From NCBI RefSeq assembly GCF_002288265.1, contig NZ_CP016778.1, forward strand, positions 1,116,001 through 1,180,000: a stretch of 64,000 bases of DNA. Reading direction: 5' to 3'. The notes beneath the pieces are model-generated. The model did no database searches. It saw only the letters and a list, made by a program, of their open reading frames with translations, and was not told the DNA's origin. Made by a program: the position numbers and the translations under genes. The DNA is from Candidatus Planktophila versatilis (GTDB taxonomy: Bacteria; Actinomycetota; Actinomycetes; Nanopelagicales; Nanopelagicaceae). Below are positions 13,730-62,090 of this stretch, one piece after another (positions within the stretch are counted from its first letter, which is position 1; the number at the start of each line of letters is the position of its first letter).

Positions 13730-13736
13730 GAGCGCA

Positions 13737-13742
13737 ATCCTA
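13737..13742 (-). promoter_or_regulatory. Predicted -10 hexamer of the nuo operon (leaderless nuoA)
   Basis: On the minus strand TAGGAT is followed by 7 nt and then the GTG of nuoA, so transcription would begin at or next to the start codon. No convincing -35 is seen at 16-18 nt; a TTGCCA sits 14 nt upstream. This is inferred from spacing and from the same pattern at other genes in the window. Confidence 0.5.
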
Positions 13743-13772
13743 AGTGCAATCCAGCGTGGCAAAAAACTGGAA

Positions 13773-14462
13773 TTACTTGAACGCCATGTGAACTGCGACA
13801 ACTCCGCCAGTCAGGTTTTTCCAGGTGACCCCACTCCAGCCGGCCTGGCTAATCTGAGCAGCGAGCGCCCCTTGATTCGGCCATGCTCGAATCGACTCTG
13901 CCAGGTAGATATAGGCATCTGGGTTAGATGAGGTTCGACTGGCCACCCAGGGAAGTGCCCGCATCAGGTAGTTGGTATAGATCTTGCGAAAGGGGGCAAA
14001 GGTTGGGCTGGAGAATTCACAGACCACCAATTGGCCACCGGGCTTTGTCACCCGCAGCATCTCGGCTAAGGCCAGCTGGGTGTTCTGAGTATTTCGAAGG
14101 CCAAAAGAGATAGTGACAAGATCAAATTCGCCATCTTTAAAAGGAAGGTTGAGGGCATCGGCCTTGGTAAAGGCTAGGTGCGGGCGAGCTTTGCGGCCCG
14201 CGGCCAACATCCCCTCACTGAAATCAGCTGGGATCACATCGGCGCCCGCTGCGGCTAATGGCTCAGAGCTCGAACCTGTCCCGGCGGCTAAATCAAGAAT
14301 CTTCATCCCTGCTTTTGGGGCGATGATTTTGGTCGTTGCCCGGCGCCAGGCTTTGGTCTGGCCCAAGCTGAGCAGGTCATTGACTAGGTCATAGCGCTTG
14401 GCAACCCCATCGAACATCGCTGCCACTTCATCAGGGTTCTTATCCATATTGGCGCGTGACAT
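13773..14462 (-). CDS. menG: Demethylmenaquinone methyltransferase
   Basis: 229 aa SAM-dependent methyltransferase of the UbiE/MenG family; it performs the last step of menaquinone synthesis. Seen motifs: [15 protein letters not shown] (SAM-binding motif I), [14 protein letters not shown] and [16 protein letters not shown]. Several in-frame ATGs exist (14498, 14468, 14462). I choose 14462 because [19 protein letters not shown] lines up with the usual actinobacterial N-terminus and a GGGGAG motif sits 9 nt before it. It lies 43 nt upstream of nuoA on the same strand, linking quinone synthesis with complex I. Confidence 0.93.
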
Positions 14463-14531
14463 GCGCATATTCTCCCCGAAGGTAGGCTTCGTGCACAACT
14501 TGTACTTGATGACAGATGAGAGGCTCTACCG

Positions 14532-15131
14532 ATGTCGATTCAATCAGGATCACTACGCGCGACTGTTTTCCCTCGTAGCTCAGCACTTACCCAAGTGCTC
14601 TTTGTGGCAGCTGGCGTAGCTTTCATCGCACTCCTTGCCCAGATTGCTATCCCAGTTCCCGGTTCTCCTGTTCCTGTCACAGGGCAAACACTTGCTGTGC
14701 TCCTTATTGGAACTACCTATGGCGCTCGCTTAGGAGTTCTTACTTTTGCCACATATCTTCTTGCCGGTGTTGCTGGTGCACCAATATTTGCTCCTTCTGG
14801 CACATCTGCCAATCACGGAATTGATCGCCTGATTGGCGCAACCGGTGGATACCTTGTTGGAATGTTGGTGGCATCCCTTGTGCTTGGTTATTTAGCTGAT
14901 CGTAAAGCAGATCAGAAATTCAGAACCTCTTTCCCAGCACTTCTTCTTGGCGATGCAATCATCTTCACCTTCGGCTTACTCTGGTTACAGCAGACACTTG
15001 ATCTCTCTTGGTCAAAGACAATTGCGGCCGGCTTTACCCCTTTCATTCTCGGTGAAGCAATCAAGATTGCAATTACTGCTACTTCGCTGCCGCTTGTGTG
15101 GCGCAGAATTTCACGCACACTTAATAAATAG
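14532..15131 (+). CDS. bioY: Biotin ECF transporter substrate-binding component BioY
   Basis: 199 aa integral membrane protein with about six hydrophobic helices. The BioY family pattern is clear: PVPGSPVPVTGQTLAVLL, then YGARLGVLTFATYLLAGVAGAPIF and GATGGYLVGML. BioY captures biotin and works with a shared ECF energising module (EcfA/EcfT), which is not in this window. A GAGAGG motif lies about 9 nt before the ATG. It is divergent from menG and directly abuts menF (TAG then ATG). Its presence suggests biotin uptake. Confidence 0.93.
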   Translation: MSIQSGSLRATVFPRSSALTQVLFVAAGVAFIALLAQIAIPVPGSPVPVTGQTLAVLLIGTTYGARLGVLTFATYLLAGVAGAPIFAPSGTSANHGIDRLIGATGGYLVGMLVASLVLGYLADRKADQKFRTSFPALLLGDAIIFTFGLLWLQQTLDLSWSKTIAAGFTPFILGEAIKIAITATSLPLVWRRISRTLNK

Positions 15132-18862: not shown

Positions 18863-18866
18863 AGAT

Positions 18867-19745
18867 TTACGGACGCTTAGGGAACTTTCCAAAGTCAGGC
18901 TTGCGCTTTTCCTTATAGGCATCGCGGCCTTCTTGTCCTTCTTGTGATAAATAAAAGAGCAGCGTTGCATCTCCTGCAAGTTGTTGAACTCCAGCAAGAC
19001 CATCATCGGCAGCGTTCATCGATGCCTTAATTAGGCGAAGTGCCATCGGAGAGTTCTGCAACATCTCGCGGCACCAGGAAACTGTCTCAGCTTCCAATTC
19101 TTTCAGTGGAACAACGGTGTTAACCAACCCCATTGATAAAGCTTCTTGGGCATCGTATTGACGAGTAAGAAACCAAATTTCGCGCGCTTTCTTCTGGCCA
19201 ACACTTGCAGCCAGTAGTCCTGAACCGTAACCGCCATCGAAGGAACCAACCTGTGGTCCGGTCTGACCAAACTTTGCATTATCTGCAGCGATAGAAAGAT
19301 CGCAGACAACATGGAGAACATGACCGCCACCAATTGCCCAACCGGCAATCATGGCAATGACTGGTTTTGGAGTTCTACGAATTTGTACTTGCAAATCTAA
19401 AACATTAAGTCGACCAACGCCTTGCTGTGAAAGTGAGTCATCTCCGAGATATCCATCATCTCCACGAACGCTGATATCTCCGCCAGAACAAAATGCTTCA
19501 TCGCCTTGACCAGTAAGAATGATGACTCCAACTTCAGAGTGATCGCGTGCTAAATCAAAAGCTGACTTCAATTCAATAATTGTTTGCGGGCGAAATGCAT
19601 TTCGCACTTCTGGGCGGTTGATCGTGATCTTTGCAATGCCATCGGCTACTTGATATTTGATATCGGTAAATGCCTCGCCACCAGGGCCGGTTGCCCAGGC
19701 CGGGATAGTCCGGTCACCAAAATCACGCTTAATAGGCTTGCTCAC
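18867..19745 (-). CDS. menB: 1,4-Dihydroxy-2-naphthoyl-CoA synthase
   Basis: 292 aa crotonase-fold enzyme closing the naphthoquinone ring. Hallmarks: [28 protein letters not shown] (oxyanion hole) and [15 protein letters not shown] with the catalytic Asp that distinguishes MenB from enoyl-CoA hydratases. The start is GTG at 19745 with a GGAGG Shine-Dalgarno 4 nt before it, so this gene appears to be initiated with a leader. It heads the menB-menC-menD unit and is divergent from menE. Confidence 0.96.
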
Positions 19746-19786
19746 GATTCCTCCATCTGGTCTACGAGCGATAGCCTACGCGGGCA

Positions 19787-21722: not shown

Positions 21723-21727
21723 GTGAT

Positions 21728-21733
21728 TACAAT
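21728..21733 (+). promoter_or_regulatory. Predicted -10 hexamer for the PLDc_N gene
   Basis: TACAAT followed by exactly 6 nt and the ATG at 21740. It lies just after the menA stop and suggests a separate leaderless transcript. Confidence 0.5.
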
Positions 21734-21739
21734 TGGAGC

Positions 21740-22003
21740 ATGATTAAATTGACAGGTCTCTTACTGATTTTGTCTGTGGCACTGACTCTCTACACCTTTA
21801 TTGATTGTGCTCGTCGGGATGAAACGCAAATTCAGAAATTGCCTAAGTGGGGCTGGTTAATCATTATTCTCTTGACTGGAATTTTTGGTCCGATTGCCTA
21901 TTTGGTTATTGGAAGAAACCCATTGAAGAACCTGCCTAAGCGAAAGCCACAGAAGCGAATCTTGCCTCCTGATGATGACCCAGATTTCTTGCGCAGAATA
22001 TAG
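21740..22003 (+). CDS. Small membrane protein, PLDc_N-like
   Basis: 87 aa with two hydrophobic helices (residues 3-22 and about 38-58) separated by a charged loop, followed by a basic tail ending in DDDPDFLRRI. The pattern FIDCARRDETQ-x-LPKWGWLIIILL-x-GPIAYLVIGR is that of the PLDc_N (phospholipase D nuclease N-terminal) membrane domain, which occurs alone in many actinobacteria. No catalytic domain is attached and the function is unknown. It lies directly after menA, a common actinobacterial neighbourhood, but its own -10 suggests separate transcription. Confidence 0.8.
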   Translation: MIKLTGLLLILSVALTLYTFIDCARRDETQIQKLPKWGWLIIILLTGIFGPIAYLVIGRNPLKNLPKRKPQKRILPPDDDPDFLRRI

Positions 22004-22009
22004 AAACTT

Positions 22010-25648: not shown

Positions 25649-25649
25649 T

Positions 25650-26270
25650 TTATTTCTGTGGCAAAAGATGCTTTGCTGGTTCGGAGTAGGAGGTTCCAGA
25701 AATCATTCCCTCGTCATCAAAGTGAACGCTAGTCACCGATGCCAATGTGCACTGGCGCTTGCGTGGGTCGTGAATCAATCTTCGCCCCTCAATGGCACTT
25801 CTGAGAATCCAGATAGGTAGTTGATGTGAAACAACAATTGCATCTTTACCTTGCGCAGCATCTCGTGCTTGAAAAACAGCAGCTAACATCCGTGAAATTT
25901 GCTCTTCATAAGGTTCACCCCATGATGGTTTCCAGGGATTAATCAGATGTTTCCATGATGATGGGTGTCTAAGAACTCCGCTACCAAGTTCGAATTTCTT
26001 ACCTTCAAATATATTGGCAGCTTCGATTAATTTTTCATCTGTTGTGATATCAAGTGAGTGTGCCCGCGCAATTGGTGTCGCTGTCTCTTGCGCACGCTGT
26101 AACGGTGAGGCATGTACTGCGCCGAGATCAATTGACTTAGACCAATCACCAATCACCTGCGCCATCTCTTGCCCGCGCTGTGACAATCGCCATCCGGGTT
26201 GGCGGCCATAGAGAATTTTTTCAGGATTCTCCACTTCACCATGACGGATAACGTGGACAATCGAACTCAT
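25650..26270 (-). CDS. Histidine phosphatase family protein
   Basis: 206 aa. The phosphoglycerate-mutase fold is shown by VIRHGEVENP (catalytic His), HASPLQRAQETA, and the second His in IVVSHQLPIW. The substrate cannot be told from sequence; 2,3-diphosphoglycerate mutase activity is not implied. I choose the ATG at 26270 (MSSIVHVIRHGE) over that at 26282 because a TATGAT hexamer lies 7 nt before it. It is the first gene ahead of the cytochrome c maturation genes, a gene order often seen in actinobacteria. Confidence 0.88.
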   Translation of the reverse strand: MSSIVHVIRHGEVENPEKILYGRQPGWRLSQRGQEMAQVIGDWSKSIDLGAVHASPLQRAQETATPIARAHSLDITTDEKLIEAANIFEGKKFELGSGVLRHPSSWKHLINPWKPSWGEPYEEQISRMLAAVFQARDAAQGKDAIVVSHQLPIWILRSAIEGRRLIHDPRKRQCTLASVTSVHFDDEGMISGTSYSEPAKHLLPQK

Positions 26271-26277
26271 GACCCTA

Positions 26278-26283
26278 ATCATA
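26278..26283 (-). promoter_or_regulatory. Predicted -10 hexamer of the cytochrome c maturation operon
   Basis: TATGAT (minus strand), 7 nt before the ATG at 26270. It favours a leaderless message and argues against the ATG at 26282, which falls inside the hexamer. Confidence 0.55.
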
Positions 26284-26309
26284 AAGCGTCTATTTCTACC
26301 GCGTATCGC

Positions 26310-26315
26310 TAGGGT
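26310..26315 (+). promoter_or_regulatory. Predicted -10 hexamer of the HAD hydrolase gene
   Basis: TAGGGT followed by 6 nt and the ATG at 26322. It is divergent from the histidine phosphatase promoter only 26 nt away. Confidence 0.5.
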
Positions 26316-26321
26316 AGTGAC

Positions 26322-27083
26322 ATGGCACTCACAGCAAATCGAGCCGCCTTTTTCGATGTAGATAACACCCTCGTGCGAGGGTCCACCCTCTACTTTCTCG
26401 GACGAGGCATGTACCAGCGCGGCTTCTTCACAAAAGCCGATATCTCTCGATTTGTGGTCGCCAACCTACGTTTTCGCATGACAGGTACGGAAAAGAAGGA
26501 AGTAATTGAAAAGTTCCAAAATGCGGCTACTGATTTTATCGGTGGCCATAAAGTTGAAGAGATTAAAAAAGTTGGAGAAGAGATTTACGATGAATTCGTC
26601 TCACCAAAATTGTGGCAAGGAACATTTGAGATTGCAAAATCTCATCTAGATCGCGGTGAAGAAGTTTGGCTAGTAACAGCTGCTCCTCAAGATATGGCAG
26701 ACATCATCGCTCAACGTCTCGGATTAACAGGAGCACTTGGCAGCAAGGCAAGTATTGAAAATGGTGTCTACACCGGTGAACTAGAAGGAAAACTTCTGCA
26801 CGGAATAGAGAAAGCAAAAGCAATACAAAGACTTTCAGACGAACATGGATTTATCCTCCAAGATTGCTATTCATACTCAGATAGCCACAACGACATTCCT
26901 TTGTTGCAAGCGGTTGGCCACCCTTGCGCAATAAATCCTGATGCCATTCTTCGTATTCGCGCACTTGCAGAAGGATGGCCAATTCACGATTTTCGTAGAG
27001 CTCGATTCGTCAACCGTTTACTTGGGCCGGCTGTCAGCAGACTTGCTGCCCTTGCAACCCTGCTCTCTCCTCGCAAACGCTAA
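26322..27083 (+). CDS. HAD-superfamily (IB-type, SerB-like) hydrolase
   Basis: 253 aa. The catalytic pair Asp12/Asp14 is in FFDVDNTLVRG, motif II is LVTAAP, and motif IV is YSYSDSHNDIPLL. The ordering and the cap between motifs I and II fit the HAD-IB subfamily, which includes phosphoserine phosphatases and lipid-linked members. The C-terminal basic segment, about 40 residues after VGHPCAINPD, is typical of actinobacterial members of unknown substrate. It stands alone and is followed 45 nt later by the helicase-associated gene. Confidence 0.88.
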   Translation: MALTANRAAFFDVDNTLVRGSTLYFLGRGMYQRGFFTKADISRFVVANLRFRMTGTEKKEVIEKFQNAATDFIGGHKVEEIKKVGEEIYDEFVSPKLWQGTFEIAKSHLDRGEEVWLVTAAPQDMADIIAQRLGLTGALGSKASIENGVYTGELEGKLLHGIEKAKAIQRLSDEHGFILQDCYSYSDSHNDIPLLQAVGHPCAINPDAILRIRALAEGWPIHDFRRARFVNRLLGPAVSRLAALATLLSPRKR

Positions 27084-32308: not shown

Positions 32309-32314
32309 TAGCGT
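32309..32314 (+). promoter_or_regulatory. Predicted -10 hexamer deciding the start of the secreted metalloprotease-like gene
   Basis: TAGCGT followed by 8 nt and the ATG at 32323. It argues for this ATG over the TTG at 32314, which falls on the hexamer, and the ATG at 32332. Confidence 0.45.
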
Positions 32315-34700: not shown

Positions 34701-35891
34701 TTAACGGGCAGCGATACGAAATACGGCCGGTGATTGATCTGCGTTGAGCGCAAGGCCCACAATTCCCAAATCTTTTGAGTACGCAAGTGCCAGCGGCTCA
34801 CTTAGTTCGCTAGAACCAAATGCACTTGTCATTACACCTTTTGCATCAAATACCACAACCAGTAGCTGTGCCTTACTTGGCTTCCATCCTGTAATGGATG
34901 CAATTGCAGATTTTGAACCCATCGCGGCATAACTTATTCCAGCCCCAGTGATGGCACGTGATTGACCGGTGGAAGCAAACCTTATTGTCCAAGTGGGTAC
35001 AAATGTCGAAGTGAATTTTGTAATCGCAGTCTCTGTAGTTTTTCCAACCTTCACGTAACCACTTAAGAGCAAACTTGAATCGGCACTTAACCAGGAGCGA
35101 TCGCCTTTGATAGCAGAGCTTCGAACCACAGAAGCGATTGCTCCGGACTTGGAGGTTTTAACAAGTACACCGTCTCGAACCCCAGCTAACTTCTTTCCGC
35201 CTAGAGTTTCGGTACTGGAACCAAATAGTGATGAACTTCCATCACTATTTCGAACAACAGTGTTAATTGTGGTCTTAGATGTTCCAATACTTGCTTGTTG
35301 TGAGAATTCACCAGCAGCGCTCATGTTCTGCAGAAACGGTTTCTCTGAAAGAACGCCAACGATTGATAACCCAGATTTGTTCACAGAAATTGAGTTGATC
35401 AGGCCAGGAAGATCGTATTGAGATGTATAGGTTGCAAGCAGTTCACCTGCGGGGGAAATCTTCCACACAGTGAGTACGTTGAGATCTCCTCGCAATTCTT
35501 CAGCGGCTTCCAAAGTGATTGCATCGGGGTTTTCAGCTATGACAGATGCTGTTTCTGTAGAAGCACTCTTTACTTGCGATGAAAAGCCTGCCAGCCACAC
35601 ATTTGCCGCACCATCAACAGTTGTTGCCATCGCCACTTCATCAACGCCTGAATCAATGACCTTCTGCCAGAGTGAGACTCCAGTGCCATTAACAGCGCTC
35701 AGCACAATATCGGTTGTTTGTGAATCTACCGTTGCAATGGTGATGATGGAGGAGCCAGATACCGCCAGCATCTCGGCACCAGGAACGCTAAGAACCGTCG
35801 TCACTTTCTTCACTGCGACTTTCTTTTGAACAGCTTCAGCTGTCGGCATCAGCGTTATTGAAATTACAAGAAGTAGTGCAATTCTTTTCAT
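34701..35891 (-). CDS. Secreted repeat protein, probable beta propeller
   Basis: 396 aa. The signal peptide is MKRIALLLVISITLMPTAEA. The mature part is Ser/Thr/Val-rich beta-sequence with repeated units such as GVSLWQKVIDSGVDEVAMATT, NVLTVWKISPAGELLATY and LLVVVFDAKGVMTSAFG, typical of propeller or SBBP-like blades. I see no catalytic residues. It overlaps the proC stop by a TAATG junction, so it is probably co-transcribed with proC, though I see no metabolic link. Function unknown; binding to a surface ligand is a guess. Confidence 0.82.
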   Translation of the reverse strand: MKRIALLLVISITLMPTAEAVQKKVAVKKVTTVLSVPGAEMLAVSGSSIITIATVDSQTTDIVLSAVNGTGVSLWQKVIDSGVDEVAMATTVDGAANVWLAGFSSQVKSASTETASVIAENPDAITLEAAEELRGDLNVLTVWKISPAGELLATYTSQYDLPGLINSISVNKSGLSIVGVLSEKPFLQNMSAAGEFSQQASIGTSKTTINTVVRNSDGSSSLFGSSTETLGGKKLAGVRDGVLVKTSKSGAIASVVRSSAIKGDRSWLSADSSLLLSGYVKVGKTTETAITKFTSTFVPTWTIRFASTGQSRAITGAGISYAAMGSKSAIASITGWKPSKAQLLVVVFDAKGVMTSAFGSSELSEPLALAYSKDLGIVGLALNADQSPAVFRIAAR

Positions 35892-36706
35892 TACTGCGCT
35901 AACTCTGCTGCACGTTTTGCAGATGCAGCCATCGCATCTGCAACAATCTTCGAAATTCCTGCCTCATTAAAGACGCCAAGTGCTTCGGCAGTTGCACCTT
36001 TCAGGCTGGTAACTTTCTCACGAAGAACTGTTGGGCTATCACCTGATTCTTCTAACATGGCCGCAGACCCAACGATTGTTTGCACCGTAAGTGTTGTTGC
36101 ATCTTCACGGGAGAGACCCAATGCGATAGCGCCATCAATCATCGCTTCCACAAAACGGAAGAAGTATGCAGGTCCTGAGCCACTTGTTCCGGTGAGCGCA
36201 TTTTGTAACTCTTCTGGAATAAGAAGTGATTTGCCAGTTGCGGTCAGTAATTGATCAACAAACTTCTTCTGATCTTCAGTGACGCCGGTAGCTAGTGAGT
36301 AACCAGCCATCCCTTTGCCCAGAAGGGTTGGGGTGTTTGGCATCACACGGGCGATAGCTGTATGGCCACTTAGACCTTCTGAGATTGCGGCGATGGTTTT
36401 ACCAGCAAGGAGGGAAATCACCAGAGTTTGGGGACGCAGATGTGGCGCAATTTCAGGCAATAACTCTGAGAGACCCTGGGGCTTTATTCCTAGAAGCAGA
36501 ACATCAGATGAAGAGATGGTTTCAGCTAAGCCAACAACTGTGACACCGTACTTCTTTGCCAGCTCTTGGCCGCGTTCTTGTCTGCGTACAACAATGGCAA
36601 TTGCAGAGGGTTGTAATCCAGATCGAATAAGGGCTGCAATAAATGCTTCTCCCATAGTTCCGGCACCGATGATGCCAACTCTGGAGATGCCTTTGTAATT
36701 AGCCAT
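35891..36706 (-). CDS. proC: Pyrroline-5-carboxylate reductase
   Basis: 271 aa NAD(P)H-dependent enzyme for the last step of proline synthesis. The N-terminal Rossmann motif is GIIGAGTMGEAFIAAL. Further signatures are VMPNTPTLLGKGM and TGTSGSGPAYFFRFVEA, then the C-terminal helix VTSLKGATAEAL. Normal length. A TACTCT hexamer 6 nt before the ATG predicts a leaderless transcript, arranged back-to-back with the promoter of the divergent cysteine-rich gene. Confidence 0.96.
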   Translation of the reverse strand: MANYKGISRVGIIGAGTMGEAFIAALIRSGLQPSAIAIVVRRQERGQELAKKYGVTVVGLAETISSSDVLLLGIKPQGLSELLPEIAPHLRPQTLVISLLAGKTIAAISEGLSGHTAIARVMPNTPTLLGKGMAGYSLATGVTEDQKKFVDQLLTATGKSLLIPEELQNALTGTSGSGPAYFFRFVEAMIDGAIALGLSREDATTLTVQTIVGSAAMLEESGDSPTVLREKVTSLKGATAEALGVFNEAGISKIVADAMAASAKRAAELAQ

Positions 36707-36712: not shown

Positions 36713-36718
36713 AGAGTA
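36713..36718 (-). promoter_or_regulatory. Predicted -10 hexamer of proC
   Basis: TACTCT on the minus strand, 6 nt before the proC ATG. A -35 element for it would fall around 36736-36741, inside the divergent gene. Confidence 0.5.
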
Positions 36719-36722: not shown

Positions 36723-36728
36723 TAGGCT
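36723..36728 (+). promoter_or_regulatory. Predicted -10 hexamer of the cysteine-rich protein gene
   Basis: TAGGCT followed by 8 nt and the ATG at 36737. It lies only 4 nt from the opposing proC hexamer. Confidence 0.45.
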
Positions 36729-36736: not shown

Positions 36737-37546
36737 ATGTCAGAGATAAAGCCAGGTTTCGCACGTGATTGGGTCGAATTTTCAGATCCAAATGATGAAG
36801 AAGAAATTTTTAAGTGCGACCTCACATGGTTGACCTCATTCTGGACCTGTATCTATGGCGATGGCTGCCAAGGTGTATTTAAGGATCGCCCCAATGATGG
36901 ATGCTGCACCGAAGGTGCGATGTATTCAGATGAGGATGATGAAGAACGCGTTCGTAAGGCAGCTGAATATCTGACCCCTGAAATGTGGCAATTCTATGAA
37001 GAGGCTCGCCCAAAGAAACCTGGCGGCAAACTTCGCATTACCGATTTAGATGAAGATAAAGAACGCAAGACTCGCACCGTCAATAATGCCTGCATATTCC
37101 TTAACCGCAAAGGTCATGAAGCACCAGGATTTACCGGATCATTTGGTTGCGTTCTGCATCACCTGGCACAGCAGCGTGAAATTCACTTTGTAGATACAAA
37201 ACCTGATGTTTGTTGGCAACTTCCCTTACGACGCAGTTTTGAAACTCGCGAAGTTGGCGAACGTGAATACCAAATCACCGTCATTGGCGAATATGAACGT
37301 CTTGCATGGGGCGATGGTGGAGACGATTTCGATTGGTACTGCACAAGTAATACCGATGCTCACGTCGGTAGTGAACCTGTCTATATTTCCAACAAGGCCG
37401 AATTGCAACAACTCATGGGTAAAGATGCCTATGCAGTTCTTGCCCAGCATTGCGATAAGCGCATTGCTGGCATCAAAGATGCTCAAGCTCGCTCGCTACC
37501 GCTCTTCGTTATTCAACACCCAGCAACAATCGCAGCCGGTAAGTAG
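36737..37546 (+). CDS. Cysteine-rich protein, YkgJ/DUF3109-like metal-binding candidate
   Basis: 269 aa, soluble, acidic. Cysteines are clustered at 27, 38, 44, 56 and 57 (the last two in DGCCTEGAMYS). After a linker come NACIFLNRKG, FGCVLHHLAQQ and KPDVCWQLPLRR. The order CC, then C-x-x-H, then KPxxCxxxPxR resembles the YkgJ/DUF3109 zinc- or iron-chelating families, but I cannot confirm membership. No signal peptide. It stands alone behind its own predicted promoter between proC and radA. Function unknown; a metal-binding role is the best reading. Confidence 0.75.
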   Translation: MSEIKPGFARDWVEFSDPNDEEEIFKCDLTWLTSFWTCIYGDGCQGVFKDRPNDGCCTEGAMYSDEDDEERVRKAAEYLTPEMWQFYEEARPKKPGGKLRITDLDEDKERKTRTVNNACIFLNRKGHEAPGFTGSFGCVLHHLAQQREIHFVDTKPDVCWQLPLRRSFETREVGEREYQITVIGEYERLAWGDGGDDFDWYCTSNTDAHVGSEPVYISNKAELQQLMGKDAYAVLAQHCDKRIAGIKDAQARSLPLFVIQHPATIAAGK

Positions 37547-37560
37547 TCAGTTCTCTGGTC

Positions 37561-37566
37561 TAATCT
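37561..37566 (+). promoter_or_regulatory. Predicted -10 hexamer of radA-mutY
   Basis: TAATCT followed by 6 nt and the radA ATG at 37573, fitting a leaderless transcript. Confidence 0.5.
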
Positions 37567-50061: not shown

Positions 50062-50067
50062 TGAGAT

Positions 50068-52745: not shown

Positions 52746-52753
52746 GGAGCTCC

Positions 52754-53305: not shown

Positions 53306-53336
53306 CGGGTGTGCTCCTTATGTGTTCGAATCGAAC

Positions 53337-54296
53337 TTACTGGTTTGAGAGCGAAAGTCTGCCCGAAATTCGCTCAACCTTCACACCACCCGGCAGGCTC
53401 ACCAGCCCCTGACCGTGCCAAGAAGTGACCAGCGCCTCAACTGCCCCGACATGGTCAGCTGAAATTGAGCCTGAAGGTGCACCCGCTGCATAGATTGCGC
53501 TGCGCAGGATGCGAGTTCTGATCGCTCGAGGCAAAAGCTCAAGGGCTGAGCAATCCAAATCTTTGAGGTTATGACTTGAAATTTCAGCGCTGGCAATTGC
53601 ATCCAGGGCATCGGCATCATCTCGAAGTAAAGCAGCACTGCGGGCCAGAGCTGCTGCAATTCCAGGGCCAATCTGTTCTTCCATTACCGGCAGAACTTCA
53701 CGGCGAACTCTCACTCTAGAAAACTCATGGTTTTCGTTATGAGGATCATTCCAAAATTCGACACCTGCTTCCGTGCAGGCTTCTTCGGTCTGCGTGCGAG
53801 TAAGTGAGAGAAGTGGCCTCAGATAAATTCCATTTTCAATTGCCATCCCGGAAAGTGAACGAGTTCCTGAACCACGAGCCAATCCGAGTAGAACGCTTTC
53901 GGCCTGATCATCTCGGGTGTGCCCCAGTAACACCCTGACCGCTTTTTTTTCTCCCGCAATTCTTTGTAGCGCTTCGTATCGAGCACTTCGCGCGCCAGCT
54001 TCTAATCCAGATTCAAGTGAGACATTTACTTTGGCAACCACCACATCTTGAAAGCCCATTGCTCTCAATTGTTTTTCGACTTTCGCTGCCTGGTCAGCTG
54101 ATTTCTCTTGCAATTGATGATCGATAGTGACTGCAACGGCCTTGATTGCTAGCGGGGCGCATTCAACAAGTGTTGCTTGGGCTAGAGCGAGTGAATCTGC
54201 TCCCCCAGAAACTGCAACAAGAATGCAGTCGCCAGCTTCACATCTTTCGAGTTGCTCTCTTACCGCGTTACGAATTGCAACTGATGCCTGCGCCAT
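53337..54296 (-). CDS. tilS: tRNA(Ile)-lysidine synthase
   Basis: 319 aa PP-loop ATPase that converts the wobble cytidine of tRNA-Ile(CAU) to lysidine. The PP-loop is LVAVSGGADSLALAQ (motif 30-35), followed by LLGHTRDDQAESVLLGL and the LRPLLSLTR segment. It is the short form, without the large C-terminal extension of the E. coli enzyme, as usual in actinobacteria. Its predicted -10 overlaps the stop codon of the upstream wall-hydrolase gene. Confidence 0.95.
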   Translation of the reverse strand: MAQASVAIRNAVREQLERCEAGDCILVAVSGGADSLALAQATLVECAPLAIKAVAVTIDHQLQEKSADQAAKVEKQLRAMGFQDVVVAKVNVSLESGLEAGARSARYEALQRIAGEKKAVRVLLGHTRDDQAESVLLGLARGSGTRSLSGMAIENGIYLRPLLSLTRTQTEEACTEAGVEFWNDPHNENHEFSRVRVRREVLPVMEEQIGPGIAAALARSAALLRDDADALDAIASAEISSHNLKDLDCSALELLPRAIRTRILRSAIYAAGAPSGSISADHVGAVEALVTSWHGQGLVSLPGGVKVERISGRLSLSNQ

Positions 54297-54302
54297 GGGT
54301 CT

Positions 54303-54308
54303 AGGTTA
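54303..54308 (-). promoter_or_regulatory. Predicted -10 hexamer of tilS, overlapping an upstream stop codon
   Basis: TAACCT on the minus strand, 6 nt before the tilS ATG. Its first three bases are the TAA stop of the NlpC/P60 gene. Confidence 0.45.
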
Positions 54309-55508: not shown

Positions 55509-55514
55509 TGAAGA

Positions 55515-55520
55515 AGAATA
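55515..55520 (-). promoter_or_regulatory. Predicted -10 hexamer of the NlpC/P60 gene
   Basis: TATTCT on the minus strand, 6 nt before the ATG at 55508. Confidence 0.5.
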
Positions 55521-55562
55521 AATCAGAGACAGTTATTAGTTGGGGCTATTGGCCCTGTGTCG

Positions 55563-56354
55563 TTAGTTAGCCACATCTCTTCGAGAGAAAAGTGTTGCAG
55601 CAACTATAGATCCAACAAATACATAGAGAGTTCCCAGAATTAATGCATGCAAATATGAAACATCTGAGCTACCACCTTGGGCAATTACTGATAGTTGATT
55701 TCCAGGCATCCAATCCAGCGTCACTGGTTTCACAGCGCCGATGAGGTTTTCAATAATAAGAAGCCACAAAACCCCGATAGAGATCGCAGAAATTGGCGAG
55801 CGAAAGAGCAGTCCTAACACCATTCCTACGATGCCAAAGTAAATTACTGAAATGCTGACATTGAGCAGCGTTTGACCAATTGCGTGGAAGCCCGATGCTG
55901 TGAACCATAAATCTGTCGCAACTTTTGCGCGCCCAGATAGCGCAACGGAAATCCCAATACTCACGATTGCTGAGATAATTACTAATACAAGAGCAAAGAG
56001 TTTCATGGCAATTAATTTGCCGGCCAAAATCCGAAGCCGCCCAGGTTGGCGCACGAGCAGATTTCTTAAAGTTCCGTAGGTGTACTCCTGCGCGGTCTGT
56101 GCGGCGAAAACACAGAGTGCAATAACTCCGAGTAACCCACCCACTGATGCAAATCCAAAAACAGAGCCCCCAGCTAATTCCAGAACTTCTCGACTCACCT
56201 GTCGACCACGATCTGAGTTTCCTCTTTCAGAATCAATCATGAGGTAGAGAAAAACGCTGGTTAAGGCGGTGAAGAAAAGAGCAGCACCTAAAGTGCCAAG
56301 GAAGAGAGTTGGTCTGCGCAGCTTGCGCCACTCGGCCATAATCACGCGAATCAT
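55563..56354 (-). CDS. ABC transporter permease (ABC-2 type)
   Basis: 263 aa with six predicted membrane helices. The start MIRVIMAEWRKLRRPTLFLG and the mid-segment TAQEYTYGTLRNLLVRQPGR are typical of ABC-2/YfiM-like export permeases, in which a loop contacts the ATPase. It overlaps the ATPase gene by an ATGA junction, so the two form one exporter. The substrate is unknown; bacitracin-type resistance or lipid export are possibilities only. Confidence 0.87.
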   Translation of the reverse strand: MIRVIMAEWRKLRRPTLFLGTLGAALFFTALTSVFLYLMIDSERGNSDRGRQVSREVLELAGGSVFGFASVGGLLGVIALCVFAAQTAQEYTYGTLRNLLVRQPGRLRILAGKLIAMKLFALVLVIISAIVSIGISVALSGRAKVATDLWFTASGFHAIGQTLLNVSISVIYFGIVGMVLGLLFRSPISAISIGVLWLLIIENLIGAVKPVTLDWMPGNQLSVIAQGGSSDVSYLHALILGTLYVFVGSIVAATLFSRRDVAN

Positions 56355-57259
56355 GATCGATCTCCAGTCATTTCAAAGAATGTCTCTTCTAGGTTAGGAA
56401 GTTGCGGAGCAAGTTGGGTAAGAACAATGCCTGCTTCAAATGCTTTTTTATTGAGAGTTCCGGCCCACTCTTCTGGACCTTCAATATGTGCAACTTCAGA
56501 GCGGATTGAGGCCTTATGTCCATCGCGTTCGGCAATCTCAATAATCTTCTGTAAGTCCGAAGGATTTTGCGTCTTCACCAAAATCAGTGGCTGTTGCGCT
56601 TGCATAAGTTCTAGAAGTGGCCCTGCAAATACAACTTCGCCTTTTCGTAACATGACGATGTATTCACTAATGAGTTCTAGCTCTGAAAGTAGATGTGATG
56701 AGACAAAAACAGTGGTGCCCTGTGAAGCTAGCTTTTTGAGTAAGTCACGAACTTCTTGGATGCCTTCTGGATCTAATCCATTGGTTGGTTCATCTAGTAT
56801 CAAAATCTTTGGATTCGGCAGCAGGGCTGCTGCAATACCCAGTCGCTGCTTCATGCCGAGTGAATATGTTTTATATTTCGATTGGCCTCGTCCCTCGAGT
56901 CCTACTATGCGAATAAGTTCTTCCACGCGTTCGATAGGAAATCCGCCCAGGGTTGCCAGGACTTTAAGGTTCTCCGCACCTGACAGCGCCGGATAGAAGG
57001 CAGGACCTTCAATCATGGCGCCCACTTGTGAGAGGTATTTATCTGGGTGGCTGATGGATTGCCCAAGAATTTCCGCAGTTCCGCCCGTAGGTGAGATCAA
57101 GCCGAGCAGCATACGAATAGTTGTTGTCTTACCCGCTCCATTAGGACCAACGAACCCACAGATGGTGCCTAAGGGAACTTCAAAATTTGCGTGCGAGACT
57201 GCAAAGCCAGAATCGTATTTCTTGCTGAGATCTTTGACAGATATCGCGATAGTCGTCAT
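56351..57259 (-). CDS. ABC transporter ATP-binding protein
   Basis: 302 aa. Walker A GPNGAGKTTTIRM, signature YSLGMKQRLGIAAALL, Walker B ILILDEPTNGLDP, and the switch His in VSSHLLSE are all intact. A C-terminal regulatory domain of about 80 residues follows. The frame is open 36 codons further upstream, but the ATG at 57259 (MTTIAISVKDLSKKY) is the normal start, and a TATTTT hexamer lies 6 nt before it. Pairs with the permease gene downstream. Confidence 0.92.
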   Translation of the reverse strand: MTTIAISVKDLSKKYDSGFAVSHANFEVPLGTICGFVGPNGAGKTTTIRMLLGLISPTGGTAEILGQSISHPDKYLSQVGAMIEGPAFYPALSGAENLKVLATLGGFPIERVEELIRIVGLEGRGQSKYKTYSLGMKQRLGIAAALLPNPKILILDEPTNGLDPEGIQEVRDLLKKLASQGTTVFVSSHLLSELELISEYIVMLRKGEVVFAGPLLELMQAQQPLILVKTQNPSDLQKIIEIAERDGHKASIRSEVAHIEGPEEWAGTLNKKAFEAGIVLTQLAPQLPNLEETFFEMTGDRS

Positions 57260-57265
57260 ATGTGC

Positions 57266-57271
57266 AAAATA
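57266..57271 (-). promoter_or_regulatory. Predicted -10 hexamer of the ABC exporter operon
   Basis: TATTTT on the minus strand, 6 nt before the ATG at 57259. It interleaves with the divergent metZ promoter. Confidence 0.5.
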
Positions 57272-57283
57272 CCACGCAAACCT

Positions 57284-57289
57284 TAGAAT
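57284..57289 (+). promoter_or_regulatory. Predicted -10 hexamer of metZ
   Basis: TAGAAT followed by 6 nt and the metZ ATG at 57296. Confidence 0.55.
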
Positions 57290-57295
57290 GCTCTT

Positions 57296-58519
57296 ATGAG
57301 TAAAGAGGTCTGGGGTTATCACGAACACCCAAAACGTCGCGAGCCCGAGTGGGTAGTTCATCCTCAAACTTCAGCAGTTCGCGAAGGACTCGCTCGTTCT
57401 GGATTCGGTGAGACATCTGAGGCGCTCTATCTCAACAGTGGATTTACCTACACCGATTCACAAGAAGCAGCCGATGCTTTTACCGACCAAACTGATCATT
57501 TTCTCTATAGCCGCTTTCATAATCCAACTGTTGCAATGTTTGAAAAGCGATTGGCAGCCATAGAAGGAGCAGAACACTGCGTAGCAACCGCATCTGGAAT
57601 GGCTGCAATGTTTGCATCCTTGGCTTGCATTCTTGAAGCTGGTGACCACATTGTTGCTTCAGCTGCGATGTTTAGCTCATGCCATGTTGTTATTACCGAA
57701 ATCTTGCCTAAGTGGGGCGTGACTTACGAGTTAGTTAAAGCGAATGATAAAGCTGGCTGGGAGAAAGCACTGTCTAAGAAAGTAAAGGCAGTATTTATTG
57801 AAACACCAAGTAATCCACTTCTTGAAATTGTTGATATCAGATTTGTCTCCGATTTAGCCCACAAAGTTGGTGCAACGGTGATTGTTGATAACGTGATGGC
57901 ATCGCCGGTATTACAAAAACCGCTCGAACTGGGCGCAGATGTGGTGATGTATTCAGCAACAAAACACATTGATGGTCAAGGTCGCGTCCTTGCCGGTGCA
58001 ATTCTTGGATCGTTCTCGTATATCTATGAAAAATTGATTCCTTTTGTTCGACATACGGGTCCAACGCTGAGTGCATTTAGCGCGTGGGTTCTTGTTAAAT
58101 CTCTTGAAACTATGGGACTTCGAGTTTCTCGTATGTCAGAAAGTGCGCAGGCTATTGCGGAATTTCTTGAAGGGCATCCGAAGATTAAGAGTGTTCGCTA
58201 TCCCGGCTTGCCTTCGCATCCGGATTTTGAATTAGCTAAGAAGCAGATGATTGCTGGTGGAACCACTATAGGTATTGAATTTGTCGGCTCACAACGGGAA
58301 GCCTTTACCTTTATGGATGCACTCTGCGTCATTGATATTTCAAATAATCTTGGAGATAGCAAATCACTCATTACTCATCCTGCTTCTACTACCCAGCGAC
58401 GCCTGAGCCCTGAAGATCAGCTCAAGATGGGTATTACTCCTTCGGTACTCAGACTTTCCGTCGGTTTAGAACACGTTGGCGATTTAATTAAAGATCTAGA
58501 TCAAGCACTGAGTAACTGA
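57296..58519 (+). CDS. metZ: O-succinylhomoserine sulfhydrylase / Cys-Met metabolism PLP enzyme
   Basis: 407 aa pyridoxal-phosphate enzyme. The PLP lysine is Lys223 in YSATKHIDGQGR. Other motifs: FLYSRFHNPTVAMFEKRLA, ATASGMAAMFA and FIETPSNPLLEI. The HIDGQGR version, in place of the more common YxxGHSD of cystathionine synthases, fits direct sulfhydrylation of O-succinylhomoserine by MetZ. It would make homocysteine for methionine synthesis. Cystathionine gamma-synthase is the main alternative. The end overlaps the convergent ctaB by 19 nt. Confidence 0.88.
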   Translation: MSKEVWGYHEHPKRREPEWVVHPQTSAVREGLARSGFGETSEALYLNSGFTYTDSQEAADAFTDQTDHFLYSRFHNPTVAMFEKRLAAIEGAEHCVATASGMAAMFASLACILEAGDHIVASAAMFSSCHVVITEILPKWGVTYELVKANDKAGWEKALSKKVKAVFIETPSNPLLEIVDIRFVSDLAHKVGATVIVDNVMASPVLQKPLELGADVVMYSATKHIDGQGRVLAGAILGSFSYIYEKLIPFVRHTGPTLSAFSAWVLVKSLETMGLRVSRMSESAQAIAEFLEGHPKIKSVRYPGLPSHPDFELAKKQMIAGGTTIGIEFVGSQREAFTFMDALCVIDISNNLGDSKSLITHPASTTQRRLSPEDQLKMGITPSVLRLSVGLEHVGDLIKDLDQALSN

Positions 58520-59370
58520 GCTACAACCAGTAATACTGAGAATAAACTCAAGTAGGTGATCGACCAATGGAAAATTCCAGCAGCCACCTTGTTGTAGTTA
58601 TCTGAATTCTCTTTGAGTGCAAAAAGTTGGAATGTAAATACTGCTCCAAGAAATACTGTGGCACAGAGAACCCATACCGGCAGTCCCGCCAATTGAATCA
58701 TGGCTGCAGAAGACACGACCATGGCAATTGTGTGAAACCACATCTGGTTAATGACGTTAGATTGTGTTGAAACCGAAGGCAACATTGGAATTCCAGCCGC
58801 CGAATAATCATCTTTATATTTAATTGCAAGAGCCCAGAAATGTGGTGGCGTCCAAAAGAAAACAACTAGAAAGAATGCAACCGGAACGAGAGTCAGTGAT
58901 CCTGTGACAGCAGCCCAACCAATCAGAACTGGCATGCAGCCTGCTGCACCACCCCAGACAATATTCTGTGAAGTGTTGGGCTTAAGAATGATTGTGTAAA
59001 TGACCACATAGTAGAAAATTGCTAGCGCTGCGAGAAGAGTTGCCAGCTCGGTGGTAAAGATTTCAAAAATGAGGAGAGATAGAACTGTCAATATGGAGGC
59101 GAAGATGATTGCTTGGGTTCGAGTGACGGATCCTGTTACCAAAGGACGCTGTGAAGTTCGAGCCATTAACTTATCGGTTTCAGCTTCAAGCACCATGTTA
59201 AAGGCGTTAGATGCACCTGCAGCTAACGTGCCACCAATCAGCGTTGCCGCAACTAAGCCAAAACTTGGTAACCCTTTCTCTGCCAAAACCATCGCTGGCA
59301 GAGTTGTAATAATCAAGAGTTCAACCACGCGTAATTTCATCAGGTCTACATATGCGCGCACCGACTTCAT
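58501..59370 (-). CDS. ctaB: Heme O synthase (protoheme IX farnesyltransferase)
   Basis: 289 aa UbiA-type membrane enzyme that adds a farnesyl group to heme for the terminal oxidase. Motifs: NAFNMVLEAETDKLMARTSQRPL (only the NxxxDxxxD-like core is cited here), KRT-like loop replaced by TSQRPLVTG, and FFWTPPHFWALAIKYKDDY. About nine helices. It starts at the ATG at 59370; a TAGGCT hexamer lies 6 nt before it. Together with the cytochrome c maturation genes it implies an aerobic cytochrome oxidase chain. Confidence 0.94.
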   Translation of the reverse strand: MKSVRAYVDLMKLRVVELLIITTLPAMVLAEKGLPSFGLVAATLIGGTLAAGASNAFNMVLEAETDKLMARTSQRPLVTGSVTRTQAIIFASILTVLSLLIFEIFTTELATLLAALAIFYYVVIYTIILKPNTSQNIVWGGAAGCMPVLIGWAAVTGSLTLVPVAFFLVVFFWTPPHFWALAIKYKDDYSAAGIPMLPSVSTQSNVINQMWFHTIAMVVSSAAMIQLAGLPVWVLCATVFLGAVFTFQLFALKENSDNYNKVAAGIFHWSITYLSLFSVLLVVAQLLSA

Positions 59371-59376
59371 ATGTAT

Positions 59377-59382
59377 AGCCTA
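59377..59382 (-). promoter_or_regulatory. Predicted -10 hexamer of ctaB
   Basis: TAGGCT on the minus strand, 6 nt before the ctaB ATG. Confidence 0.5.
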
Positions 59383-59396
59383 CCTTTTTGCACTAG

Positions 59397-59402
59397 TACT
59401 CT
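59397..59402 (+). promoter_or_regulatory. Predicted -10 hexamer of the YVTN propeller gene
   Basis: TACTCT followed by 7 nt and the ATG at 59410. It supports this ATG over the in-frame ATG at 59371. Confidence 0.5.
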
Positions 59403-59409
59403 TGCCAGC

Positions 59410-60492
59410 ATGCGTAAGACCAAAGTCACAGTTGCCCTCTGCATTGCCGCTTTAACGCCCCTGGTTTTTGCCAGCCCAGTACAAGCTAGTGAGCCAGCTG
59501 AATCTAAGATGCAGTTGGTTAAGACTTTCACTGGATCCTTGAGCCCTAAGTCGGTAGCAGCATCTCAGAGCGGCTTGGTGAGTGCGCATAACATGATGTA
59601 TCAACATAGCGTCACAATCTTTGATTCACGTTCTCTTGAATTGATTACGACAGTCAAAGATTCGGTCTCACTTTCATCCCTTGGGATTCCAGGATTTTCC
59701 GGCACTTATCGAGGCGCTCCCGTCGAAGGGGCATACTCACCAGATTCACAGTATCTCTACTTCACTAACTATGCGATGTATGGAAAAGGATTGAATAAGG
59801 AGGGTCACGATGTCTGCTCACCCTCATCTGGATTTGATAACAGTTTTGTTTCTCGAATCAATCTAGAGAACTATGAGATCGATGCTGTGTATCCAGTGGG
59901 TTCAGTTCCCAAAGTGGTAAGTGTTACACCTGATAACAAATATGTTCTGGTCAGCAACTGGTGTTCATATACAGTTTCGGTAATCTCGGTTGAAAAACAA
60001 AAAGTAATCAAGACCATGAAAATTGGTCGATATCCTCGAGGTATAGCAATCTCATCAGATAGTAGATATGCCTATGTCGCTGAGATGGGCGGGAATAGTA
60101 TTCATCGAATTGATCTAACTGACTTTACTAAGTCATTGATTCCAATCGGTTCTAACCCGCGTACCATTCAATTATCGCCAGATGACAAAACTCTCTACGC
60201 CACCCTTAATATCTCAGGGAAAGTTATAGCTTGGAATTTAGAGCAGAACAAGGTCATCAAGAGTGTAAAGACTGGACTTTCTGCACGCAGCCTGGCACTT
60301 AATGGTGATGGAACGGCGCTCTTCGTAGTTAATTTCAGAAGCGGAACCATGACGAAGTTGCGGGCTGCCGATCTTTCGATTATCCAAAACATTAAGGTAT
60401 GCAAGGAACCAATCGGTGTTACCTACGATAATGAAACTGAACAAGCCTGGGTTGCTTGTTATGAAGGCTCTATAAAGGTATTTCAGAACTAG
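59410..60492 (+). CDS. Secreted YVTN-type beta-propeller protein
   Basis: 360 aa. Signal peptide MRKTKVTVALCIAALTPLVFA with a cleavage site near PVQA. The mature part has YVTN-like repeats: YVLVSNWCSYTVSVISVEKQ, YAYVAEMGGNSIHRIDL, TLYATLNISGKVIAWNLEQ and ALFVVNFRSGTMTKLRA. These are typical of seven-bladed propellers. A few Cys residues (in HDVCSPSSG, NWCSY, VCKEP, ACYEG) could form disulfides. Function unknown. The 3' end overlaps the convergent carboxypeptidase gene by 23 nt. Confidence 0.85.
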   Translation: MRKTKVTVALCIAALTPLVFASPVQASEPAESKMQLVKTFTGSLSPKSVAASQSGLVSAHNMMYQHSVTIFDSRSLELITTVKDSVSLSSLGIPGFSGTYRGAPVEGAYSPDSQYLYFTNYAMYGKGLNKEGHDVCSPSSGFDNSFVSRINLENYEIDAVYPVGSVPKVVSVTPDNKYVLVSNWCSYTVSVISVEKQKVIKTMKIGRYPRGIAISSDSRYAYVAEMGGNSIHRIDLTDFTKSLIPIGSNPRTIQLSPDDKTLYATLNISGKVIAWNLEQNKVIKSVKTGLSARSLALNGDGTALFVVNFRSGTMTKLRAADLSIIQNIKVCKEPIGVTYDNETEQAWVACYEGSIKVFQN

Positions 60493-61687
60493 TAATTTCG
60501 GTTTCTGGTTCTAGTGCTACCTCTGGTTCTTCTTGCACGCTTTGGAAAAATGGAGCTGCAATCTTTCCTAGAATGCGGTCAATCAGATCGCGTATGCGAC
60601 TTGCAACAGAATAAGTCTTTAAATGTCTATCGGAAATGATGACAAAGGCATATTCGCGGTCTCCAGATTCAACATACCCCGCTAAATTAGTTGTATTGCT
60701 CAGCGTTCCAGTCTTTGCTTTAACTAAACCGACTGCATCTGGGGCAGTTTCAGTAAATCGGTTTCGTAGGGTGCCAGAAATACCACTTATCGGAAAACCG
60801 TTTATTAGTGGCACGAATCGTTCATCTGTTCTAATTTTCACAAGTAATTGACCGACCAGATTTGCGGTGACGCGATTTTCTTTAGATAACCCGCTGGCAT
60901 CTTTGATAATCATCTTTGAAGATTCGATTCCAAGTTCTGCCAATGCATTTGAGAAAGTATCTGCAACGCCAGCTTGATCAAAGGTATTGCCTGCGGCTAC
61001 AGAGGCAAGTCGGGCTATCCGCTCCGAGAGCGTGTTATCACTCCATGCAATTGCATAAGCAAGCATTTCCTCAAGTACGGGAGACTCTGAGCCAAGAATT
61101 CGTGTGCCTGAAAAATCAAGAGCAGTCTGGTTGCTCACTCTCTTCATTTTTACATTTAAGCCCTTGGTTCGAAAAAACTTCTTAATATGTTCAGTTTCGG
61201 GAGTAAAAAGACTTGAATAGAAAAGGGTGAAGTTCGAATTTAAATCTGGGTTTAGGTCCTTAAGTGCTTTGAGTGAGTTGAATTCAATCCGCGGTAAAGA
61301 TGTTCGGCCCATCTTTTCGGCAAGCTTGGCACTAGTACTAATCCATGGGTCATAACTCCCTTGAATCACCAAACTATTTGGTTCTGTACCAACCCAGAGC
61401 GAAGTGGGAAAGACCTGATCCATGGGCAGATGCATGACCGCTGCTACACCCATGAAAATCTTCTGAATTGATGCTGGCTTTCGTAACGAATACGCCCCTT
61501 TTTGGTAAACCACAGATCCGTCATGCTGATCAATCACAACCACCGAAGGGTTTGCCAGGTACTTATTTTCAATATATCTACTAAATACAGATGCAACAGA
61601 ATTTGGCTCCAGCGCTGTTGCAGAAGCAGGGCTAAGAAAGGTAAGCAGGAGCAGGGCGCTGCAGAATAGGCTAACTTTACGCTTCAT
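60470..61687 (-). CDS. dacB: D-alanyl-D-alanine carboxypeptidase/endopeptidase (PBP4-like, S13)
   Basis: 405 aa penicillin-binding protein. Signal peptide (to about ASATA24). The three active-site motifs are in order: SIQK (73-76), SDN (216-218) and KTGT (325-328). The large insertion between the first two is characteristic of family S13. The C-terminus ends in an acidic, Glu-rich tail (EPEVALEPETE) without a membrane anchor. It trims or cleaves peptidoglycan stem peptides. It is downstream of a small membrane-protein gene by 11 nt. Confidence 0.9.
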   Translation of the reverse strand: MKRKVSLFCSALLLLTFLSPASATALEPNSVASVFSRYIENKYLANPSVVVIDQHDGSVVYQKGAYSLRKPASIQKIFMGVAAVMHLPMDQVFPTSLWVGTEPNSLVIQGSYDPWISTSAKLAEKMGRTSLPRIEFNSLKALKDLNPDLNSNFTLFYSSLFTPETEHIKKFFRTKGLNVKMKRVSNQTALDFSGTRILGSESPVLEEMLAYAIAWSDNTLSERIARLASVAAGNTFDQAGVADTFSNALAELGIESSKMIIKDASGLSKENRVTANLVGQLLVKIRTDERFVPLINGFPISGISGTLRNRFTETAPDAVGLVKAKTGTLSNTTNLAGYVESGDREYAFVIISDRHLKTYSVASRIRDLIDRILGKIAAPFFQSVQEEPEVALEPETEITSSEIPL

Positions 61688-61698
61688 TACTAAATTGG

Positions 61699-62046
61699 TT
61701 ACCAGATATATGCAATGAGCACATTAGAAAGCGTGAGCACCAGCATGGCCACCCAGACTGAAGTCTTTAGTTCGGGTTTCTTGAAATTCTTGTAGCCCAA
61801 GGTCAACAACACCGCAATGATCAATCCTTTAACACCAAACTTTGTGTGATTGGCAACCTCATCAACTTTTACCGTTTCATATAGCCCCACCATGACAACT
61901 CCAGCAATAAGTGCAGTCAGTGTTGCGTGGACTACACCAGGGTTGAGAGTACGAGGGCTCTTATTCACTTGCAGCAGTAGCAGCACCAATATGGCAACGA
62001 TGCAGAGTAGATGTATGCCAAATGCAATCTGGTAGACGATATTCAT
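61699..62046 (-). CDS. Small four-helix membrane protein, unknown function
   Basis: 115 aa with four hydrophobic segments (about 4-23, 37-53, 70-82 and 93-113) joined by short loops. I recognise no family. The frame is open 14 codons upstream, but the ATG at 62046 has AAGGAG 4 nt before it, while a TACTTT hexamer (minus strand, about 62066-62071) could be its -10. It is co-directional with dacB and may be co-transcribed. Divergent from the SPOUT methyltransferase gene. Confidence 0.75.
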   Translation of the reverse strand: MNIVYQIAFGIHLLCIVAILVLLLLQVNKSPRTLNPGVVHATLTALIAGVVMVGLYETVKVDEVANHTKFGVKGLIIAVLLTLGYKNFKKPELKTSVWVAMLVLTLSNVLIAYIW

Positions 62047-62078
62047 GATGCTCCTTGGTATTAGCCGTAAAGTAAGTT

Positions 62079-62084
62079 TAGAGT
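62079..62084 (+). promoter_or_regulatory. Predicted -10 hexamer of the SPOUT methyltransferase gene
   Basis: TAGAGT followed by 6 nt and the ATG at 62091. A TTGGTA at 62055-62060, 18 nt upstream, may be its -35. Confidence 0.55.
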
Positions 62085-62090
62085 GCATCC

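Follow-up and report, generated by a model that had tools for sequence, protein, structure and literature searches.

A 2011 survey of Actinobacteria found TA-led genes, with a TAnnnT hexamer ~10 bp before the start codon, in 86 of 89 genomes and at ~20% of genes; it associated high-GC groups (>60%) with the loose form TAnnnT, and groups of medium GC with TAtaaT (PMC3160421). According to the same source, ~40% of genes are TA-led in Deinococcus-Thermus. In Mycobacterium tuberculosis, 26% of genes with a primary transcription start site (TSS) are reported to be leaderless (PMC3898074). We analyzed a 64 kb window, bases 1116001-1180000 of the single 1,325,420-base chromosome of Candidatus Planktophila versatilis, in which a sequence-only reading had noticed a TANNNT hexamer 6, 7 or 8 nt before the start codons of fifteen genes and had noted that leaderless mRNAs are known in actinobacteria.

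We take Planktophila to belong to the acI lineage of freshwater actinobacteria. The RadA protein encoded in the window shows 100% identity to the RadA of an uncultured actinobacterium bin and 99% identity to the RadA of a Candidatus Planktophila bin from Lake Baikal, in keeping with an acI host. The acI actinobacteria rank among the most abundant bacteria of fresh water, and their gene starts have been predicted largely by software that expects Shine-Dalgarno (SD) sites. With chance subtracted, the TANNNT box is used by about 15-20% of all genes in our sample and by about half of the heads of divergent gene pairs (divergent heads). Our data suggest, with a probability of about 0.92, that it is a -10 box directing leaderless transcription, beginning at the start codon itself, at these genes. 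The signature would give a rule for correcting acI gene starts.

Position and frequency of the box

Offsets were counted in 464 kb of the chromosome, comprising the window and 20 spread stretches of 20 kb (400 kb), with a sampled G+C content of 48%. Genes were called by a three-periodic Markov model blind to upstream sequence. This gave 61 genes in the window and 94 divergent heads in a first gene set (100 in a later set), with genes at stretch edges excluded from class counts. Using the starts of the longest open reading frames (ORFs), a choice blind to the motif, the box lay 6 nt before the start codon (offset 6) in 26 of the 94 divergent heads, at offset 7 in six, and at offset 8 in three. 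Every other offset from 0 to 25 gave 0 to 2 of 94. The offset peak at 6-8 nt that the sequence-only reading expected genome-wide was present in the genome sample, with its maximum at 6 nt.

In the 400 kb outside the window, the box lay at 6-8 nt in 31 of 84 divergent heads, with 3.5 expected from other offsets (binomial p ~2e-21). Admitting starts that scored up to 3 units below the best (tolerance 3) raised this to 46 of 84, with 7.0 expected. The 100-head set yielded 39 of 100, or 56 of 100 with several starts allowed (control, 8.9). Over all genes, window included, the box was present at 77 of 413 (13.3 expected), and at 111 of 413 (27.3 expected) at tolerance 3. Applied to Escherichia coli K-12, the same method found no box at the divergent heads (0 of 26, against an expectation of 2.4) and a single one among 125 genes (7.0 expected). 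The earlier estimate of background had assumed TANNNT at 1 in 64 positions, and this rate was wrong: the frequency measured over the 464 kb was 0.0064 per position. The resulting figure of ~5% of genes by chance over three offsets nonetheless stood, as controls gave ~4-5 per 100 divergent heads.

At divergent heads, bases 3-5 of the box lean to G/A, G/A and C (TA-R-R-C-T). Among 140 other heads, one-mismatch boxes at offset 6 showed no clear excess with the first T changed (13 versus 8.5, sd 2.4), the A changed (4 versus 7.0), or the last T changed (8 versus 6.7).

Start codons, initiator bases and Shine-Dalgarno motifs

The bases around box-bearing starts resembled those of transcription initiation. 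The 115 such starts comprised 96 ATG, 17 GTG, and 2 TTG codons, so that 113 of 115 would present a purine at +1. Control candidate starts, with a box at offsets 12-41, were divided among 147 ATG, 85 GTG, and 59 TTG. A pyrimidine stood at -1 in 96 of the 115, compared with 156 of 316 other starts (p 7e-11).

SD motifs were scarce at these starts. A strict test identified them at 6 of 113 box-bearing starts and at 90 of 297 other genes, against a coding background of 5-7%. The remaining 207 of these 297 genes have neither box nor SD motif by strict tests, reflecting start errors, weak SD motifs or something else. The claim that genes with a leader have SD motifs held for the three genes checked: clpC and hpt, together with a gene at 18867-19745 that is presumably menB.

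The fifteen starts in the window

All fifteen genes named in the sequence-only reading carry the box 6-8 nt before an in-frame ATG or GTG (6 nt in ten, 7 nt in three, 8 nt in two). With starts scoring up to 6 units below the best admitted, the box-bearing genes among the 61 in the window were exactly those fifteen. Five of the starts lie inside the longest ORF, those of nuoA, the phosphatase gene, the secreted gene, the ABC ATPase gene, and the propeller gene. The candidate -10 boxes, and one further element upstream of radA, are listed below in window coordinates, with the number of acI relatives that share the box.

13737..13742, minus strand: TAGGAT, 7 nt before the GTG of nuoA (13364-13729; Pfam Oxidored_q4); 5/5 relatives
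21728..21733, plus strand: TACAAT, 6 nt before the ATG of the PLDc_N gene (21740-22003); 5/5 relatives
26278..26283, minus strand: TATGAT, 7 nt before the ATG of the histidine phosphatase gene (25650-26270); 5/5 relatives, at offset 6 or 7
26310..26315, plus strand: TAGGGT, 6 nt before the ATG of the HAD hydrolase gene (26322-27083); 5/5 relatives
32309..32314, plus strand: TAGCGT, 8 nt before the ATG at 32323 of the secreted metalloprotease-like gene; 5/5 relatives, three with shifted starts
36713..36718, minus strand: TACTCT, 6 nt before the ATG of proC (35891-36706)
36723..36728, plus strand: TAGGCT, 8 nt before the ATG of the Cys-rich gene (36737-37546)
37546..37549, plus strand: GTCA, separated by 11 nt from the radA -10 box downstream; similar to the P1 (PafBC-type) damage promoter of mycobacteria
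37561..37566, plus strand: TAATCT, 6 nt before the ATG of radA (37573-38940)
54303..54308, minus strand: TAACCT, 6 nt before the ATG of tilS (53337-54296); 5/5 relatives
55515..55520, minus strand: TATTCT, 6 nt before the ATG of the NlpC/P60 gene (54306-55508); 1/5 relatives
57266..57271, minus strand: TATTTT, 6 nt before the ATG of the ABC ATPase gene (56351-57259); 3/5 relatives
57284..57289, plus strand: TAGAAT, 6 nt before the ATG of the Cys/Met PLP enzyme gene (earlier called metZ; 57296-58519); 3/5 relatives
59377..59382, minus strand: TAGGCT, 6 nt before the ATG of the UbiA-family gene (earlier called ctaB; 58501-59370); 3/5 relatives
59397..59402, plus strand: TACTCT, 7 nt before the ATG of the beta-propeller gene (59410-60492); 4/4 relatives having a match
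62079..62084, plus strand: TAGAGT, 6 nt before the ATG of the SpoU-family methyltransferase gene (62091-62741); 5/5 relatives

Pfam agreed with most names, including nuoA, PLDc_N, histidine phosphatase, HAD, proC, and TilS, as well as NlpC/P60, ABC ATPase, Cys/Met PLP enzyme, UbiA, beta-propeller, and SpoU. We take the gene at 37573-38940 to be radA from its zinc ribbon, KaiC-like ATPase, and ChlI-like end, found in that order by Pfam. The only Pfam match of the "metalloprotease-like" gene was fn3, and the Cys-rich gene had no Pfam match. The NlpC/P60 gene is the weakest of the fifteen and the only one with a purine at -1.

Conservation of the box

Conservation was assessed in five relatives, which are acI genomes reached through named records. 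Orthologs of the fifteen genes carried a box at 6-8 nt in 64 of 74 cells (gene by genome), 47 of them at the strictly aligned start. Control offsets gave 2-9 matches in the same 74 cells. Among orthologs of the remaining 46 genes of the window, 9 of 222 cells had the box, and control offsets gave 3-11.

Broader sampling of the radA region gave a similar picture. The radA box was kept in 80 of 80 relatives (offset 6 in 66, offset 7 in 14), with middle bases and spacer varying. The box of the Cys-rich gene lay at offset 8 in 71 of 72 loci. The proC alignment reached residue 1 in 22 radA-region loci, and 21 of these had the proC box at offset 6 or 7; a further 50 loci were not assessable.

Two genes in the window show the box in relatives only. 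Relatives carry it at the gene at 61699-62046 (2 of 4) and at the gene at 62749-63702 (3 of 5), but this genome has it at neither; AAGGAG lies upstream of the former. These genes may have switched between leaderless and SD-led starts, and such orthologs could test how the two modes of initiation interchange.

The Cys-rich protein (36737-37546) has 269 aa and adjoins proC in 72 of 80 radA loci, with ~75-99% identity across 72 alignments. The stretch TAGGCTCTGCGACT, 5' of its start, is unchanged in many of the 72 loci. Separately, a near-identical 21-mer, GTCRGTGGNNNTCCGTACCTT, occurs in many family genomes among the matches listed (e.g. G164:C8:14348, G155:C7:18280, and G129:C1:431474) and could belong to a conserved coding region or RNA.

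A possible damage-type element at radA

The pattern GTCR-N11-TANNNT was present in 77 of 80 radA loci. The published PafBC-type P1 consensus is tTGTCRgtg - 8 nt - TannnT (PMC5656591). Relative to it, most radA loci have A in place of the T that precedes GTCR, and the following gtg is kept only in part. Two adjacent WYL-domain genes occur in 6 of 6 genomes (at C1:634970-636113 in this one), as expected of pafB-pafC. Genome-wide, GTCRGT-N9-TANNNT showed no excess (11 versus 17 for the control). A full TGTCRGTG-N8-TANNNT match was observed at L003:18255 on the plus strand, its -10 box 24 nt before the gene starting MTFKVGETVVYPHHGAALIE. This gene, which presumably encodes CarD, is a possible further PafBC-type target.

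Proposed mechanism and alternative explanations

We propose a housekeeping-type promoter in which a TANNNT -10 box, leaning to TA-R-R-C-T, lies 6-8 nt before the start codon. RNA polymerase would start on the A or G of the ATG or GTG, producing an mRNA without a leader that would then be read by leaderless initiation. SD-led genes would make up part of the remainder. Between divergent neighbors, two -10 boxes would lie side by side, with the upstream half of each promoter in the first codons of the neighboring gene. The sequence itself shows the spacing, its conservation, the initiator bases, the start-codon bias, and the scarcity of SD motifs; we infer both the actual start site and the translation of the leaderless mRNA.

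The most serious competitor, which we still consider unlikely, is that the promoter is real and starts a few nucleotides off, leaving leaders of 1-5 nt, or is secondary to a main upstream promoter with a leader. At a fixed distance from -10 to +1, offsets 7 and 8 (45 of the 115 starts) would leave 1-2 nt, and some heads have room upstream for a second promoter. However, a pyrimidine precedes the start codon in 30 of 34 starts at offset 7 and 10 of 11 at offset 8 (40 of 45 together), a bias that favors initiation on the start-codon purine over initiation at a constant distance from the box. Where divergent gaps measure 22-44 bp, there is little space outside coding sequences for another promoter, and SD motifs are rare at these starts.

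It is far less probable that TANNNT near the start codon serves translation, as an AU-rich signal, instead of acting as a promoter. The box does sit where an SD motif would, and it occurs in 23 of 189 close tandem genes (gap <20 nt) where 4.2 were expected. Even so, divergent heads carry it more often (39 of 100) than close tandem genes do, the initiator bases are those of transcription, and the radA box forms part of the GTCR-N11-TANNNT element that 77 of 80 loci retain. Least probable of all, and close to negligible, is the notion that AT-rich upstream DNA often holds TANNNT and convenient starts were picked: some 4-5 of 100 divergent heads match any three-offset control (~9 with several starts allowed), but this is refuted by the 31 of 84 versus 3.5 outside the window, and disfavored by the single-offset peak at motif-blind starts and the 64 of 74 conserved ortholog cells.

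Several observations weigh against leaderless transcription from this box or narrow its reach. Gene starts came from our own caller, and about a quarter of box genes at tolerance 3 are chance matches (27.3 of 111). The signature is absent from most tandem genes separated by 50 nt or more (17 of 84 have it, control 5.1). The gene rpsJ, encoding a ribosomal protein, is SD-led and without a box in 8 of 8 acI genomes. Genome-wide, bare TANNNT-N6-ATG showed no excess (347 versus 375 for the reversed pattern), in counts that cannot distinguish gene starts from coding DNA. A gene-blind offset scan of the sample gave only a weak signal for the same pattern (118 versus a mean of 98, sd 28). TTGACA matches were weakly raised at spacers 17 and 18 (mean 1.9 versus 1.3-1.7 at others except 11), evidence for a -35 element that is weak because spacer 11 (mean 1.85) is as strong.

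The gene-blind scan was clear for TARRVT-like boxes (39 versus 15.8, z 4.0) and detected no excess before GTG or TTG. Overall, the box signal became clear only once gene starts were used. The sequence-only reading had called leaderless starts the rule at most transcription-unit heads. This is too strong, as the signature marks about half of divergent heads after chance is subtracted and few of the tandem genes separated by 50 nt or more.

Divergent gene packing

Back-to-back putative leaderless promoters in gaps of 20-60 bp are the most distinctive trait of this genome. In the window, the HAD hydrolase and histidine phosphatase genes are divergent partners with a gap of 51 bp, the starts of proC and the Cys-rich gene are 30 bp apart, and gaps of 36 and 39 bp separate the metZ-like gene from the ABC ATPase and the beta-propeller from the UbiA-family gene. 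Divergent neighbors could lie only 20-60 bp apart because neither gene would need a leader. Across the sample, 47 divergent pairs had the box on both sides in 20, on one side in 14, and on neither in 13. In 12 acI sets, 54 pairs had gaps of 0-60 bp and 35 of these carried it on both sides, versus 5 of 62 with gaps of at least 90 bp, while six other actinobacterial genomes had gaps <60 bp in 3 of 40 pairs only. These counts are only indicative because starts were motif-chosen, which biases both-box gaps, and regions are partly orthologous; the five relatives share orthologous regions with the window, so that their pairs are not independent of it.

Among 40 both-box acI pairs with gaps <90 bp, box-to-box spacing ranged from -8 to 48, with overlap in six. 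A single shared symmetric -10 box was rejected on account of this variable spacing. The packed divergent starts would thus represent mostly two neighboring promoters. Titles and abstract openings in the openly licensed literature yielded no earlier description of packed divergent leaderless promoters.

A more tentative idea, which we regard as doubtful, is that in acI leaderless initiation permits two -10 boxes between the starts, with each -35 in the neighbor's first codons. The two promoters might then exclude or couple to each other, and leaderless initiation, beyond being an inherited trait, might enable or cause genome streamlining.

Distribution among genomes

Samples of 40-60 kb per set were taken from other genomes, with G034 (a 2 kb contig) and G065 (one stretch) excluded from counts. 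Other genomes of the family carried the box at 26 of 74 divergent heads (3.2 expected), and six other actinobacterial genomes at 14 of 80 (2.0 expected). This genome and its family together (65 of 174) exceeded the other actinobacteria (14 of 80; p 0.001). Single genomes varied widely, with 1 of 10 divergent heads in G142 and 0 of 8 in G060. G005, which belongs to a different family of the phylum, lacked divergent heads, and none of its 51 genes had the box (2.1 expected); it was excluded from the pooled count of other actinobacteria. By these counts, the putative leaderless signature is common to many, not all, of the sampled Actinobacteria and is somewhat denser here. We found no earlier report of leaderless mRNAs in acI, Planktophila or Nanopelagicales in the openly licensed literature, most subscription papers being outside that scope.

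Comparison with known systems

A close parallel is M. tuberculosis, where the TANNNT box, the lack of a conserved -35, and a purine at +1 with pyrimidine neighbors have been described, juxtaposed divergent promoters are common, and ribosomal proteins are not leaderless (PMC3898074). The two cases differ in three respects. The 5' ends of M. tuberculosis were mapped by RNA-seq, whereas the Planktophila case is built on sequence. Genes for respiration are reported to be nearly absent among leaderless genes of M. tuberculosis, while nuoA, which heads the complex I operon, has the box in 5 of 5 relatives here. ATG is favored at the putative leaderless starts of Planktophila; in M. tuberculosis, ATG and GTG are reported to be used alike in leaderless and leadered genes (PMC3898074).

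Other described systems share parts of this arrangement. Deinococcus-Thermus follows the same TA-led logic in another phylum and at a higher share of genes (PMC3160421). Bacterial bidirectional promoters likewise place two divergent starts in a very short stretch (PMC10268837), but the box spacing here varies, from overlap to >40 bp.

In contrast to the GC groups of the actinobacterial survey (PMC3160421), the box of this 48% GC genome leans to TA-R-R-C-T and not TATAAT. The form of the box therefore seems to follow lineage rather than GC content. By share, box, and initiator bases, the predicted leaderless genes of Planktophila match those known in actinobacteria, with the loose box at 48% GC a small departure. 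A streamlined genome would thus have kept the leaderless habit together with the actinobacterial form of its box.

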